Shown here one piece after another: positions 617 through 10,315 of a DNA stretch of 64,000 nucleotides (within the stretch, counting starts at the first letter, position 1; every line of letters starts with the position of its first letter). Made by a program: the position numbers and the translations under genes. The stretch is from Hyphomicrobiaceae bacterium (GTDB lineage: Bacteria; Pseudomonadota; Alphaproteobacteria; Rhizobiales; Xanthobacteraceae): the NCBI GenBank assembly GCA_947472885.1, contig CANJBX010000001.1, forward strand, positions 1 through 64,000. Direction: 5' to 3'. The notes under the pieces are model-generated. The model was not told the DNA's origin and did no database searches. It saw only the letters and a program-made list of their open reading frames with translations.

Positions 617-2275
617 ATGCTCGATACAGTCAGCAAGGCCGCGCAGAAAATCTCGGTCCTCAATCCGACCGGCTATCCGCCGAAGGTGACGAAGAAGTCC
701 GCCGCCGCGCGCCTGAGTACGCTGGATGGCAAGACCGTCTATCTGGTCGATTGCCGGTTCGATGACTCCATCGAGCTGCTGAAGCAGATCCAGGCGTGGT
801 TCACCGAGAAGATGCCTTCGGTGAAGACTAAAATGGTCTCGCTGAGCAACTATTACGGCCACGACGATCCCAAGCTGTGGGAAGAGATCAAGGCCAATGG
901 CGATGCCGCGATCCTCGGCGTCGGCCATTGCTCGACCTGTGCGCCCGCCGTCACCACCCACGCCATCATGGTCGATACCAAATACGGCGTGCCGACCGTC
1001 TCGCTGCATACCGAAATCTTCGACCGCGTCGTGCGCTCGACCGCGCGCGTGCAGGGCCTCGCGCATATGCCGGCGATCTTCGTGCCACAGCCGGTGATGG
1101 GAAAATCCGCCGCCGAGTTGCGCGCCTATGTCGATGGCAAGGACCCGGTGACGGGTGTGCCGGTGATGCAGGAAATCATCGAAGGTCTGACCAAGGGCCT
1201 CGCCGGCGATACCACCAAGGAGACCGACCGTTCGACGCCGCGCCTTGTGGCGCCGGACACCGAGGAAAACCTGCACAGACTTTTTCTCGAAAATCACTGG
1301 ACCGACAATCTCCCCATCGTGTTGCCGACCGAGGAGCGCGTCGCGGCTATGCTGGCGGCGACCAGCCATCCGGCGGACAAGGTTGTTGGCCGGATGCAGA
1401 TGACGGCCAATCGCGGCTGGTGGGAATGTACGGTCGAGAAGGTCGCGGTGAATGCCGTGATGGCCGGCTGCAACCCGGAATATTTCCCGGTGGTGCTGGC
1501 GCTGGCGTCGTCGGAACTTTCCGCGCGCTCTTCGACGTCCAGTTCGGCGTCGTCGATGGTCATTGTGAACGGCCCGATCCGCAAGCAGATCAACATGAAC
1601 TGCGGCATCGGCGCGATGGGGCCGTACAACCACGCCAACGCCACCATCGGCCGCGCCTACGGCCTGCTTTCGATGAATACGCAGGGCGGTTCGGTGCCGG
1701 GCGAGACCTACATGGGCTCCATCGGCAACGGCTACAGCTACAACAATCTCACCTTCGCGGAGAACGAGGAGCGTTCGCCGTGGGAGCCGCTGCATGTGCA
1801 GAAGGGCTTCAAGCCGGAAGACTCGACCGTCAGCATCTTCTGGGGCGCGCGCTCGACCACGTTTAACCTCGGCCTGCGCGAGAAGCACTGGCGCGAACAC
1901 GTTACCGACATGCTGCGCGGCACCGACGCGCAGGCGCGGCCGTGCCTGATCCTCGATCCGATCACGGCGCGGCAGTTCATCGACCGTGGCGGCTTTGTGA
2001 AGAAGGCGGACCTGATCCAGTGGATTCACGATACGGCGCAGCGCCCCGCCGGCGAATACTGGGACCTGCAACTCATTCAGAACTACATCTATCCGCGCGC
2101 GACTTATGGCGAGGAGCCGTTCGCCGGTAACCTCGCGCAGCCGGCGGAACAGATGATCAGGATTTTCCCGCTCGCGGATATCAACGTGGTCGTCGTCGGC
2201 GGCGAGTCCAACGGCTACTGGCAGATCATGGGGGCGACCTACCGCAAGACCATTTCGGTGGATGCGTGGCGGTGA
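617..2275 (+). CDS. UGSC-type protein, cysteine form (CxxC)
   Basis: This 552-residue protein begins with the UGSC-type N-terminal domain (about residues 13-180), recognisable by 'VLNPTGYPPKV', 'LVDCRFDDS' and the redox-type motif G-H-C105-S-T-C108. In the UGSC family of (seleno)proteins the first position of this U/C-x-x-C motif is selenocysteine or cysteine; here it is TGC (Cys). The remaining 370 residues form a second conserved region with 'GPIRKQINMNCGIGAMGPYN' and a C-terminal '...TISVDAWR' shared with the gene at 7524-9158. The two proteins align nearly end to end. The start is supported by an AAGG-type ribosome site upstream of ATG 617. The reaction catalysed is unknown to me; a thiol/selenol redox role is an inference from the motif. 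Confidence 0.75.
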   Translation: MLDTVSKAAQKISVLNPTGYPPKVTKKSAAARLSTLDGKTVYLVDCRFDDSIELLKQIQAWFTEKMPSVKTKMVSLSNYYGHDDPKLWEEIKANGDAAILGVGHCSTCAPAVTTHAIMVDTKYGVPTVSLHTEIFDRVVRSTARVQGLAHMPAIFVPQPVMGKSAAELRAYVDGKDPVTGVPVMQEIIEGLTKGLAGDTTKETDRSTPRLVAPDTEENLHRLFLENHWTDNLPIVLPTEERVAAMLAATSHPADKVVGRMQMTANRGWWECTVEKVAVNAVMAGCNPEYFPVVLALASSELSARSSTSSSASSMVIVNGPIRKQINMNCGIGAMGPYNHANATIGRAYGLLSMNTQGGSVPGETYMGSIGNGYSYNNLTFAENEERSPWEPLHVQKGFKPEDSTVSIFWGARSTTFNLGLREKHWREHVTDMLRGTDAQARPCLILDPITARQFIDRGGFVKKADLIQWIHDTAQRPAGEYWDLQLIQNYIYPRATYGEEPFAGNLAQPAEQMIRIFPLADINVVVVGGESNGYWQIMGATYRKTISVDAWR

Positions 2276-6457: not shown

Positions 6458-7450
6458 CTATTGCGGTTGGATGCCTGCATCCGCGGTGATCTTGCGATAG
6501 CGGTCGATGCCGTTCTTGAGAATGGTCGCAAATTCCGCAGGTGTATTGGTGGCGACTTCGAAGCCGCTGCTCTCAAGCGACTTCGTCACCGACGGATTCT
6601 TGATCGCGATGGTGAGCGCGGTGCTGATCTTCTGCGCCAGCGCGGGCTGTATCTTGCCCGGCGCGAGAAACCCAAGCCAGCTCGACGGCATGGCGTAGCC
6701 CTTGATGGTTTCGCCGATGGTCGGAACATCGGGCCGGGCGTGAGAGCGCTTCGCTTCGGCAAGGCCCAGCACTTTCACCTTGCCGGAGTCGATGTAAGGG
6801 ATCGCGGTCGAAAGCGTGGCGAACAGCAGCGGAATTTGTCCGGCCAGCAGATCCGTCATCGCGGGATTGCCGCCGCGATAGGGCACATGCACGATGTCGA
6901 TCCCGGCCGCGATCTTGAGCAATTCGCCGGCAAGATGGTGCGTGGTATTGGGGCCGGAGCTGCCGAACGACAGCTTGCCCGGATTGGCTTTCGCATAAGC
7001 CACCAGTTCCGCAATATTGTTTGCCGGGAAACTCTGGCTCACGACAAGGCAGATTGGAAGTTCGACAGCAAGCGTAAGCGGTGCGAGATCCACAATCGGA
7101 TCGTAAGGCATGTTCTTGTTGAGCACCGCGCCGATGGTCAGCGCCGCGGCTGAGCCCAGCAGCAGCGTGGTGCCATCCGGCTCCGCGGTAGCGACCATTG
7201 CTGCGGCGAGTGTGCCGCCGCCGCCGGGCCGGTTGTCGATGATGACGGTCTGCTTGAGATTGGCCGAAAGCACGTCGCCGACCGTGCGGCCGACGATATC
7301 CGCCGCGCCGCCCGCCGCCAGCGGCGTCACGATCTTGATCGTCCGCGCCGGCCATTCCTGGGCGTCAGCCCGCGGCGCCGCCAAAGCGGCGGCAAGCGCC
7401 ATCCACACGCAAGATTTCCAGACAGTTTTGAACAAATGGGCCAGCGTCAC
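6458..7450 (-). CDS. Bug/TctC-family tripartite tricarboxylate transporter binding protein
   Basis: This 330-residue protein has an N-terminal signal sequence ending near 'APRADAQ', then the family pattern 'WPARTIKIVTPLAAGGAADIVGR', 'VIIDNRPGGGGTLAAAMVA', 'DIVHVPYRGGNPAMTDLLAGQ' and 'FLAPGKIQPALAQK'. Bug proteins are periplasmic binders of carboxylates or amides; many, as here, have no TctA/TctB membrane genes beside them. The GTG start at 7450 abuts a GGGAGG-like site and is not secure; starts slightly downstream would also give a signal peptide. It lies 73 bp after the selenoprotein candidate and 9 bp before the FAD oxidoreductase, suggesting one operon. Confidence 0.88.
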   Translation of the reverse strand: MTLAHLFKTVWKSCVWMALAAALAAPRADAQEWPARTIKIVTPLAAGGAADIVGRTVGDVLSANLKQTVIIDNRPGGGGTLAAAMVATAEPDGTTLLLGSAAALTIGAVLNKNMPYDPIVDLAPLTLAVELPICLVVSQSFPANNIAELVAYAKANPGKLSFGSSGPNTTHHLAGELLKIAAGIDIVHVPYRGGNPAMTDLLAGQIPLLFATLSTAIPYIDSGKVKVLGLAEAKRSHARPDVPTIGETIKGYAMPSSWLGFLAPGKIQPALAQKISTALTIAIKNPSVTKSLESSGFEVATNTPAEFATILKNGIDRYRKITADAGIQPQ

Positions 7451-7523: not shown

Positions 7524-9158
7524 CTACCGCCACGCATCGACGGAAATCGTCGCAGCCTTGGTGTAGCGCCCGCCGATCATGCGGAACGCACCCTGTGTTT
7601 CGCCGCCGACCACGACGATCTTGATTTCCTCCGGCTCGTACATCCGCACAAGCTGGTCAGGCGGCGCCTTGAGCTTCGCGGCGTGCGGCTCGACGCCTGC
7701 GACGGCGAGGGGGAGCGTCAGGGTTTGCACCCACTGGTCGTCCCAGTAATCGCGCGCCGGCATCACGGCGTTTTCCGAACACCACTGCGCAAGTTTTTCC
7801 TTGGTGTCGAAGCCCATTTCGACGAACAGCCGCGCGACGAGCGGGTCCATCACGATCAGCGGCGGCTGGTTGTGATCGCCGGCGGTGATGCAGCGCACGA
7901 ATTTTTCTTTCCAGGTGTCGCGCGGGCCAAAGCCGGAGGTCGTGTAGCGGCCGCCGAAGAAGATGCTGACAGTCGAGTCCGTCGGCTTGAAGCCTTGCTG
8001 CACATGGAACGGCTGCCACGGCGAGCGGTCCTCGGCTTCGGCGAAGGTCGCCGAGTAATTATAGGCGTTGCCGAGCGTGCCCATATAGGTGTCGCCCGGC
8101 ACCGAGCCGCCCTGACCGTTGACCGAAAGCAGGTTGTAGGCGCGGCCGATGGTGACGTTGGCGTGGTTATAAGGACCCATCGCGCCGATGCCGCTGCTCA
8201 TGCCGATCTCGTCGCGGATCGGACCATTGACGACCGTCGTCATCGCGAGCGAGGTCGTGCTTGAGGAGCGCGCCGAGATGCCGCTCGCGGCGTGCGCGAG
8301 GACGACCGGGAGGTATTCAGGCTTGCAGCCTGCCATCACGGCGTTGACGGCAACCTTCTCGACGGTGAGTTCCCAGGCCTCGCGGAAATTCGTCGGCCGC
8401 ATCCGGCCGACCACCTTGCCCGGCGGGTGGCTGGTGCCCTTGAGCATCGCCGCGACGCGTTCTTCCGTCGGCAGGATCACCGGCATGAAGTCGGTCCAGT
8501 AGTTGTCCATGAACAACTGCTGGAGATCGTCTTCGGTGGCCGGTGCAAGCAGGCGCGGCGTCGAGCGCTCGAACGACATGCCCTTGAGGTCTTCGTCGTT
8601 GAGTGGGCCGGTGAGGCCCTCGATCACGCCCTGCATGAACGGTTTTTTGGAAACCGGATCGATGCCTTCGATGTAGCCGCGCAGGTGTTCGGGTGAAACG
8701 TCGACGACGGGTTGCGGCACGAACGATTGCCGCGTACGCGGCATGCCGGCGGCGCGCGCCGTCGATTGCGCCAGACGGGCGAACACGTTGGTATGCACCG
8801 CGACTGCAGGAATGCCTGCTTGTTCGAGGGCCATCGTCAACCCCACGACCGTGGGGCTACAGGTGCTTCAAAGTCCGACACCCAGGATGGCTGCTGAGCC
8901 ATCCGCCTCTATCTTTGCCCGCATGTCGGCGTCATCGACCCAGCTTTCGCGCGGCTTGATGATCTTCGTGTTCACGGCCGGAAGGTTCTTGGCGAACCAA
9001 TCCTTGAGCTGGTCCATGAACACTTCGGAATTATCGAACAGGCAATCGACGAGATAGAGCGTCTTGCCATTGAGCGTCTCGGGCCGCGCCGCGAGGCGCT
9101 TGCCTGCGACCTTCGGCGGATAGCCGCGCGGGTCGTGAACGGTAATGAGTTGAGACAT
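7524..9158 (-). CDS. UGSC-type selenoprotein candidate (in-frame TGA read as Sec97)
   Basis: One 544-residue frame runs from ATG 9158 to the stop at 7524 if the in-frame TGA at 8868-8870 is read as selenocysteine. Codon 97 (TGA) lies in 'ILGVGL-U-S-T-C-SPTV', aligned with 'ILGVGH-C-S-T-C-APAV' of the 552-residue paralogue at 617-2275. Similarity to that paralogue continues on both sides of the TGA to the shared C-terminal 'TISVDAWR'. A hairpin with a GGUC loop follows at SECIS distance. The start is chosen from GGAG 6 nt before ATG 9158; ATG 9164 is also in frame. An ordinary gene caller would report two genes (8868-9158 and 7524-8846). The alternative is a nonsense-mutated pseudogene. It lies 38 bp after a thioredoxin-reductase-like gene. 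The catalytic role is unknown. Confidence 0.82.
8838..8867 (-). promoter_or_regulatory. Candidate bacterial SECIS element
   Basis: On the coding strand, 11 nt separate the TGA from a perfect stem CCCCAC / GTGGGG (8841-8856) closed by the tetraloop GGTC. G-U, A-U and U-G pairs lengthen the stem to nine (8838-8859). Loop nucleotides fall at +18 to +21 after the TGA. The known E. coli fdhF SECIS has a similar spacing and GGUC in its apical loop (recalled, not computed). The matching region of the Cys paralogue has no such hairpin. Confidence 0.78.
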
Positions 9159-9196: not shown

Positions 9197-10123
9197 TTAC
9201 ACCGGCCACACGCCGTCGGCCAAGTAGCGATCAACCGAGATTGCGGCGGCGGTGCCATCGCCCGCCGAAGCGGCAGCGCGGCCCGCAGCGCCCACGCGCA
9301 CCATGCCGGCAGCGCAGATCCCTTTGAGCGAAGTACGCATCGCGCCGTCGGTGGGCACCGCGCCGGTTGAGTCCCGCGACAGATGTCCATCGAGGAAGGC
9401 AGCTTCGGGTTGCAGGCCGATGTAGACGAACACGCCGTTGACCTCGACATCGGACGCTGCGCCGCCATTAAGGACGCGCAGACTGGACACGGCTGCATCG
9501 CCAAGAATTTCCTGTACGGTCGAGCCGTTGCGCACTTCGATTTTGGCGTTCTCTTCGACCAGTTGCCTGTAGGCCTGCTGGCCGGTGAGTTCCGGCGCCT
9601 TGTTGATGACGATGGTCTTCGCCGCGAATTGCGCGAGCGTCAGCGCCTCCTGCAAAGCCGAGTCGCCGCCGCCGATCACCGCAGCGACCTTGTTCCTGAG
9701 CAAAGGTCCGTCGCAGGTCGCGCAATGGCTGACGCCCTTGCCAGTGAATTTTTCTTCGCCGGGGACATTGAGATGTTTCAGCGCCGCGCCGGTCGCAATG
9801 ATGATGGCGCGCGCGGTCATATCGCCTTCGCCGGTCGTGACTTTCCAGCCATCGCCGTCAGCGTTGAGGCTTTCGATATTGGTCTGCGAGAATTCCGCGC
9901 CGGCGTTCATCGCCTGCTCCTGCGCGATCGGGCAGAGGTCATAGCCCGGCACGCCTTCGGGAAAGCCCGGATAGCCATCGACTTTTTCGATGCTCATCAA
10001 CTGTCCGCCCAGCACGTCACCCGACAGCACCATGGTCTTGCGGCCAAGCCGTGCGGTGGTGAGCGCAGCGGTAAGTCCGGCAATGCCTGCGCCGGCGACG
10101 ATGACATCGAAATCGTGAGACAA
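9197..10123 (-). CDS. Thioredoxin reductase-like NAD(P)/FAD oxidoreductase
   Basis: The 308-residue product has the two-domain layout of low-Mr thioredoxin reductases: FAD motif 'FDVIVAGAGIAGLTAALTTARLG', 'GGQLMSIEKVDGYPGFPEG', the redox-active 'GVSHCATCDGPLL' (C-A-T-C) and the NAD(P) motif 'VAAVIGGGDSALQEALTLA'. A longer frame runs to 10264 but enters a palindromic repeat, so I prefer TTG 10123, preceded by AGGA; this start is provisional. It lies 38 bp upstream of the selenoprotein candidate on the same strand. I infer that it may reduce that protein's USTC motif, either directly or through a carrier. The housekeeping trxB could be elsewhere. Confidence 0.82.
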   Translation of the reverse strand: MSHDFDVIVAGAGIAGLTAALTTARLGRKTMVLSGDVLGGQLMSIEKVDGYPGFPEGVPGYDLCPIAQEQAMNAGAEFSQTNIESLNADGDGWKVTTGEGDMTARAIIIATGAALKHLNVPGEEKFTGKGVSHCATCDGPLLRNKVAAVIGGGDSALQEALTLAQFAAKTIVINKAPELTGQQAYRQLVEENAKIEVRNGSTVQEILGDAAVSSLRVLNGGAASDVEVNGVFVYIGLQPEAAFLDGHLSRDSTGAVPTDGAMRTSLKGICAAGMVRVGAAGRAAASAGDGTAAAISVDRYLADGVWPV

Positions 10124-10197
10124 GTTTTGGAATCCTGTTGAGCGGTTCGGGGCGAAACTTAGTGACTTCCGTCGAGCGGATAAAGCTGTTTCGCAGC

Positions 10198-10315
10198 CCT
10201 CATCCTGAGGAGCCGCGCAGCGGCGTCTCGAAGGAGAGGGCGGGTGCCCATGCTTTCTTCGCACGGCCTCGTCCTTCGAGACGCGATCCTTATGGATCGC
10301 TCCTCAGGATGAGGC
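10198..10315. repeat. Palindromic intergenic repeat (CCTCATCCTGAGGAG type)
   Basis: The ends are inverted copies: 'ctcatcctgaggag' at the left and 'ctcctcaggatgag' at the right, with inner arms GTCTCGAAGGA and TCCTTCGAGACGC. The core looks like the dispersed 'CTCAGGATGAGG' repeats of Bradyrhizobium-like genomes. Its right end overlaps the last codons and stop of the Gfo/Idh gene. Confidence 0.7.

Follow-up and report, generated by a model that had tools for sequence, protein, structure and literature searches.

We found that positions 7524-9158 of the window (i.e., the whole 64,000-nucleotide stretch of DNA analyzed here) very probably hold a bona fide UGSC-type selenoprotein-family gene, a judgment that is drawn from sequence and concerns the nature of the gene. 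A preceding sequence-only reading had proposed that a TGA within this gene is translated as selenocysteine (Sec). The selenoprotein type stood up, given a conserved TGA, a hairpin just past it, co-occurrence with SelB and no decay specific to the gene, whereas Sec translation in this organism did not find the same footing. Standard annotation of the region would yield two fragments or a pseudogene. The features discussed below are collected in the table.

Features of the window discussed in the text (positions count from the first letter of the window)
Feature	Position	Strand	Remarks
UGSC-type (seleno)protein gene, USTC motif	7524..9158	-	544 codons, two-domain frame
In-frame TGA, predicted Sec97	8868..8870	-	TGA at the same codon in 10/10 close genes
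Predicted bacterial SECIS hairpin	8841..8856	-	6-bp stem CCCCAC/GUGGGG, loop GGUC, 11 nt past the UGA
Thioredoxin-reductase-like flavoprotein gene, CATC motif	9197..10264	-	38 bases upstream; proposed selenoprotein reductase
TctC-type solute-binding protein gene	6458..7450	-	directly downstream
Cys-type paralogue (CSTC)	617..2275	+	552 aa, 53% identical to the TGA gene

The 544-codon frame contains a single TGA, at codon 97, in the context GL-U-S-T-C. As the sequence-only reading had described, the two conventional minus-strand frames (7524-8846 and 8868-9158) share one phase across a 21-base gap, and the joined product has 544 residues with a U-S-T-C motif when the TGA is read as a residue. 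The Cys-type paralogue carries TGC at this very codon (GHCSTC), so that the TGA indeed falls on the paralogue's first Cys, and the claimed similarity on both sides of the TGA was recovered independently by the Pfam UGSC model (PF24696), which matches each half separately (31.8 and 38.3 bits). A GGAG lies a short way upstream of the ATG at 9158. Only 20 of the 544 codons, the TGA itself counted, lie one change from TGA; given so few near-TGA codons, and independent relatives with a TGA at this place, a chance TGA is no serious explanation. Reassignment of the genetic code was also considered and rejected, as 4 of the 10 genes inspected near the locus end in TGA as their ordinary stop.

Matches to the protein were found in 27 of 198 family genomes and, at a stricter limit, in 37 of 391 genomes. 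Comparison of homologues at the TGA position, which had been suggested as a check, gave a uniform answer: all ten genes that share at least 65% identity across 450 residues or more, the present gene among them, carry TGA (the gene of its own genome, G000; two genes each from G004, G046 and G068; one each from G016 and G075; and L058, a partial gene of a Rhodospirillaceae MAG that is counted among the ten). Cys-type relatives, at 43-54% identity, have TGC or TGT at the codon. A UGA conserved where other homologues have Cys, the pattern looked for in bacterial selenoproteins, is therefore what this gene displays. Across 49 near-full-length rows, a few of which are repeats of one gene, 35 had a single stop, a TGA, 11 had no stop, and three had a stop near residue 190. 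The expectation that the UGSC site holds either Sec or Cys was likewise upheld: when TGA was translated as C, column 97 of the resulting alignment (A1) was C in 41/41 covering rows and column 100 in 35 of the 41, eight of the 49 near-full-length rows having been left out of this alignment (repeats, partial rows and rows with other stops).

In a tree built from 21 protein rows, for which the program warned of long branches separating the acidobacterial rows from the rest, the nine alphaproteobacterial TGA genes formed one clade (100/100), apart from the Cys paralogues, with the G000 gene pairing with that of G004 (100/100). A TGA gene from Chloroflexi (L053) grouped with the Cys clade, with weak support (82/68). 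Separately, we observed that Cys-type relatives of genus g9 (L029, L030 and L031) are interrupted by TAA or TAG close to residue 190, where the two domains meet, and hence the UGSC and C-terminal domains appear to be separate neighboring genes in that genus.

Bacterial SECIS elements are short stem-loops located just past the UGA, with a G in the apical loop. The hairpin found here has this position and the loop G, its SECIS function itself being predicted from sequence. We examined its conservation in 13 TGA genes, chosen from a table of 20 TGA rows (L057 and L058 are absent from this table, and the seven rows of L054-L056, which do not form the hairpin, were left out). In these 13 genes, 96.2% of the 78 hairpin cells were paired, and changes on both sides of the stem occurred in 10 cells, distributed among three of the six pairs. 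None of 500 shuffles reached the observed paired percentage, double-change cell count or covariation score; the two remaining measures of five, i.e., the number of double-change pairs and the number of pair types, did not exceed the shuffles (237/500 each). When the partner column was shifted by 1-3 positions as a control, 25.6-71.8% of cells paired, and in a second control, comprising six Cys genes, only 38.9% of hairpin cells were paired, with zero double changes. The folding energy of the hairpin was unremarkable (z -1.11), and the evidence for a SECIS element is thus its covariation, the energy of the single hairpin not being exceptional.

We then turned to the Sec machinery of the relatives. 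SelB, scored by its SelB-wing_3 domain, was present in 11 of 12 TGA carriers versus 4 of the 15 carriers without a TGA match (Fisher p 0.0014); this comparison covers 27 carriers, and ten further carriers from the stricter 391-genome search are not in it. Across the whole family draw, SelB was present in 116 of 391 genomes. In G046, selD, tRNA-Sec, selB, selA, two USTC genes and a thioredoxin-reductase-like gene all lie within ~9 kb. In G016, selB adjoins the USTC gene, and neither SelA nor tRNA-Sec was seen in the 16-kb stretch around it. In G075, selA and selB sit amid fdhB-like, cytochrome b and fdhE genes, in an order largely common to G068, and a stand-alone SelD was found near selB in G046 and G068. 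Taken together, the conserved TGA, the covarying hairpin, the presence of SelB in 11 of the 12 TGA carriers and the sel genes adjoining a USTC gene in two relatives support the selenoprotein type.

Beyond these genomes, SelA and/or SelB flanked 22 of 80 named loci (the best 80 of 585 confirmed), one of which, L052, appears to be the same as G016, and a tRNA-Sec gene was found in 17 of the 22. Such loci, among L052-L131, belong to Sulfitobacter, Henriciella, Burkholderiales and others; at them sel genes lie near UGSC-type genes or the partner domain, which look as if they were the main clients of the Sec system there. We also observed that, in G046, G075 and G068, the 3' end of the selB reading frame harbors the tRNA-Sec gene in frame (L141:6549-8621, L143:4628-7207 and L144:5529-7628), an arrangement already described for Alphaproteobacteria in the available part of PMC8124441.

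The gene's own genome (G000: 3.88 Mb, 128 contigs, 99.43% complete, reported contamination 0.73%), whose genus has no second genome in our sample, gave a different picture, being the single one of the 12 TGA carriers in which SelB was not found. The sequence-only reading had counted the absence of selA, selB, selC and selD from the genome as evidence against it, and this is largely what we encountered. No SelA and no SelB-wing_3 was found in the assembly; the SelB model (cut-off 242) gave no match above 182 bits, with EF-Tu and a CysN-like protein ranking highest; the best tRNA-Sec match was tRNA-Ser(UGA); and SelU was absent. The sole SelD over the cut-off was an NADH-dehydrogenase-SelD fusion (L145:8690-10915, contig C3), and no stand-alone SelD was found, the SelD model's two other matches, at 59.7 and 34.5 bits, falling short of its cut-off of 125. 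We rejected SelD as proof of Sec use, since genomes with an orphan SelD are known (PMC5029168, in the portion available), and likewise discarded the idea that formate dehydrogenase is a second Sec gene of G000, none of its 12 matches exceeding the cut-off or containing an internal stop. The combination of SelA, SelB and tRNA-Sec was thus lacking in this 128-contig draft. Accordingly, with SelA, SelB and tRNA-Sec not found and SelD present only as a fusion, translation of the TGA as Sec in this organism is not established; as G000 is a draft, absence of these genes from the organism is equally unproven.

The copy itself bears no mark of decay specific to it. The sequence-only reading had named random stops and decayed sequence after the TGA, in close relatives, as a sign against Sec, and in this gene zero further stops or frameshifts occur in the 544 codons. 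dN/dS was 0.153 relative to the nearest gene (G004), and comparison with seven further TGA genes gave 0.23-0.32. Of the 226 columns on which the other eight genes all agree, G000 deviates at 8, the corresponding count for each of those eight genes being 5-16. The G000 branch did show a nonsynonymous excess over that of G004 (63N/54S vs 28N/66S, p 0.0005), with 29 versus 15 amino-acid changes in the TGA gene (p 0.049). Yet the Cys paralogue exhibited the same pattern between the two genomes (60/52 vs 23/48, p 0.006), so the excess looks like an effect of the lineage and not like a relaxation of the Sec gene.

How, then, can a gene of this type reside in a genome apparently devoid of its decoder? 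We favor an assembly gap over recent loss of the decoding genes: selA, selB and selC are probably present in the organism, in a block that was left unassembled or unbinned. In a benchmark reported in the available part of PMC5330540, every selenoprotein-containing genome lacking a tRNA-Sec match had that gene missing from its assembly. A real though lesser possibility is that selA, selB and selC were recently lost and the gene is an orphan relic, its UGA stopping translation at 96 residues while the Cys paralogue keeps the function; this history would be a branch of the same explanation and is not opposed to the nature of the gene. It would fit the near-complete assembly from which SelA, SelB, tRNA-Sec and SelU are missing and in which SelD is only fused, as well as the intact Cys paralogue in the same genome, and it has a precedent in strains of Yersinia pestis whose selB is broken and that keep a UGA in formate dehydrogenase (PMC1273633, in the portion available). 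The purifying selection described above, with its lineage pattern shared by the Cys paralogue, speaks against such a relic, and so does the uninterrupted frame. Single changes that make stops amount to 3.0%, and the chance that an unselected copy stays free of a further stop, computed for neutral drift by substitution with frameshifts not counted, is 0.61 for a drift of 0.01 changes per site and falls to 0.08 for one of 0.05; hence, if selABC was lost, only a very recent loss fits. Either way, the locus offers a concrete case of how long a Sec gene outlives its decoder, or of how often drafts miss a sel block.

Other readings fare worse. Contig C1 being misbinned from another, Sec-using organism would account for the missing machinery; this is very unlikely, as eight pieces of C1 showed tetranucleotide correlations of 0.954-0.982 with other G000 contigs, a span inside that of 16 stretches of the latter (0.938-0.986) and higher than any of 15 stretches taken from relatives (0.869-0.950), in a test that is blind to a contig from a very close strain, and the reported contamination of 0.73% points the same way. 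It is highly improbable that the organism, lacking SelA, SelB and tRNA-Sec, reads UGA otherwise, e.g., by an unrecognized UGA-reading tRNA inserting Cys or Sec; if true, this would explain why selection acts on the gene as it does on the Cys paralogue. We give almost no credence to an ordinary pseudogene, in which a Cys codon was turned into a stop by a random mutation: TGC and TGT are each a single substitution away from TGA, and a genome without SelB would treat the codon as a stop, but the same TGA in orthologues of other genera largely refutes this account, and neither the compensatory hairpin changes seen in TGA genes and in no Cys gene, nor the 100/100 clade of nine alphaproteobacterial TGA genes apart from the Cys paralogues, agrees with it. 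Equally negligible is the prospect of two independently translated genes, encoding 96-aa and 440-aa proteins. Cys relatives of genus g9 do have an interdomain stop, but that natural split falls near residue 190 and not at codon 97, where the TGA lies inside the UGSC domain; moreover, the GTG at 8846 that would start the second gene has no Shine-Dalgarno-like ribosome-binding sequence and sits within the 3' arm of the hairpin.

To characterize the putative product, we modeled its structure. The full model (pLDDT 93) placed Sec97 after a strand (89-95) and at the start of a helix (100-113), within a domain of alternating strand-helix order. Among solved structures, Rossmann-like and receiver-like folds made up most of the top matches (Z up to 10.8, with 138 residues superposed at rmsd 4.9), and the better matches of the full model fell in residues 26-191. 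The model thus suggests a two-domain redox protein with a UxxC site at the helix start of a Rossmann-like N-terminal domain. The C-terminal domain (7527-8561 of the window, ~345 residues), modeled alone at pLDDT 90.7, had a best structural match of Z 5.7 over 79 residues, TM-scores by query length of no more than 0.24 among the 50 Foldseek matches listed, and no significant hit in Pfam, NCBIfam or the PDB sequences. The lack of a good structural match does not show that this domain has a new fold. The structure searches yielded no function for the protein.

Counting the present locus, the thioredoxin-reductase-like gene neighbors USTC or CSTC genes at 11 loci, whether these are of the Sec or the Cys type; no such neighbor was seen for either G004 Sec gene, for the C14-borne gene of G068, or at L054-L061. 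A plasmid search returned 24 records, all below 60% identity. A Variovorax plasmid carries these three genes in a different order, namely thioredoxin-reductase-like gene, TctC gene and UGSC fusion, the latter having CGSC at its redox site. In the lineage of carriers, SelB with Sec-tRNA would read UGA codon 97 as Sec, guided by the hairpin, and the conservation of columns 97 and 100 suggests that Sec97 and Cys100 could form a selenenylsulfide pair. Judging from the gene pairing, the UxxC site may be re-reduced by the neighboring flavoprotein, with electrons presumably passing from NADPH to the flavoprotein, to the UxxC site and on to a substrate. The TctC neighbor hints, as a weak inference, at an imported organic acid as that substrate. 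The UGSC selenoprotein fusion, the thioredoxin-reductase-like flavoprotein and the TctC binding protein together form a testable unit in a little-studied family of selenoproteins.

With regard to known systems, the joined frame scored 91.8 bits against Pfam UGSC (PF24696; cut-off 25), which makes it a member of that family, and 64.5 bits against the NCBIfam equivalog UGSC_fam (NF041046; cut-off 125), which does not make it a member of the latter. Like the UGSC-containing selenoprotein (PF24696; NF041046), it has the N-terminal domain recognized by Pfam (~residues 7-161) and a UxxC/CxxC redox site occupied by Sec or Cys, here U-S-T-C; the literal U-G-S-C motif, which this gene does not have, is carried by distant TGA relatives, a distant Variovorax Cys relative has CGSC, and USSC, USQC, UGGC and UGSC all occur among the relatives. 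It differs from that selenoprotein in its U-S-T-C motif, its score below the equivalog cut-off and its ~345 extra C-terminal residues, the UGSC domain being fused to an uncharacterized domain (~residues 200-544). The USTC variant is not described in the available parts of PMC2398784, PMC13188914, PMC5029168, PMC1273633, PMC8124441, PMC9312934 and PMC5330540, and the string 'USTC' has zero occurrences in the available text of the first.

The novelty initially ascribed to this locus was nonetheless too strong, and is better called modest, as both a UGSC-containing selenoprotein and a UGSC fusion protein already appear in the accessible part of a 2008 paper (PMC2398784). Were the gene a relic, it would resemble the UGA-containing formate dehydrogenase of Yersinia pestis in keeping a Sec codon without the ability to decode it; as far as the available text of PMC1273633 goes, selA, selC and selD remain in Yersinia pestis and selB is a visible pseudogene, whereas here the whole of selABC is missing from the draft. 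A close parallel to the gene is the UGSC/Unknown_1 fusion from the Global Ocean Sampling study (PMC2398784, in the portion available), in which a UGSC-type selenoprotein is likewise joined to a conserved domain whose function is unknown. Unknown_1 and the C-terminal domain found here are likened by description only, and the same source takes the UGSC protein to be likely thioredoxin-like, whereas our model of the Sec domain is Rossmann-like.
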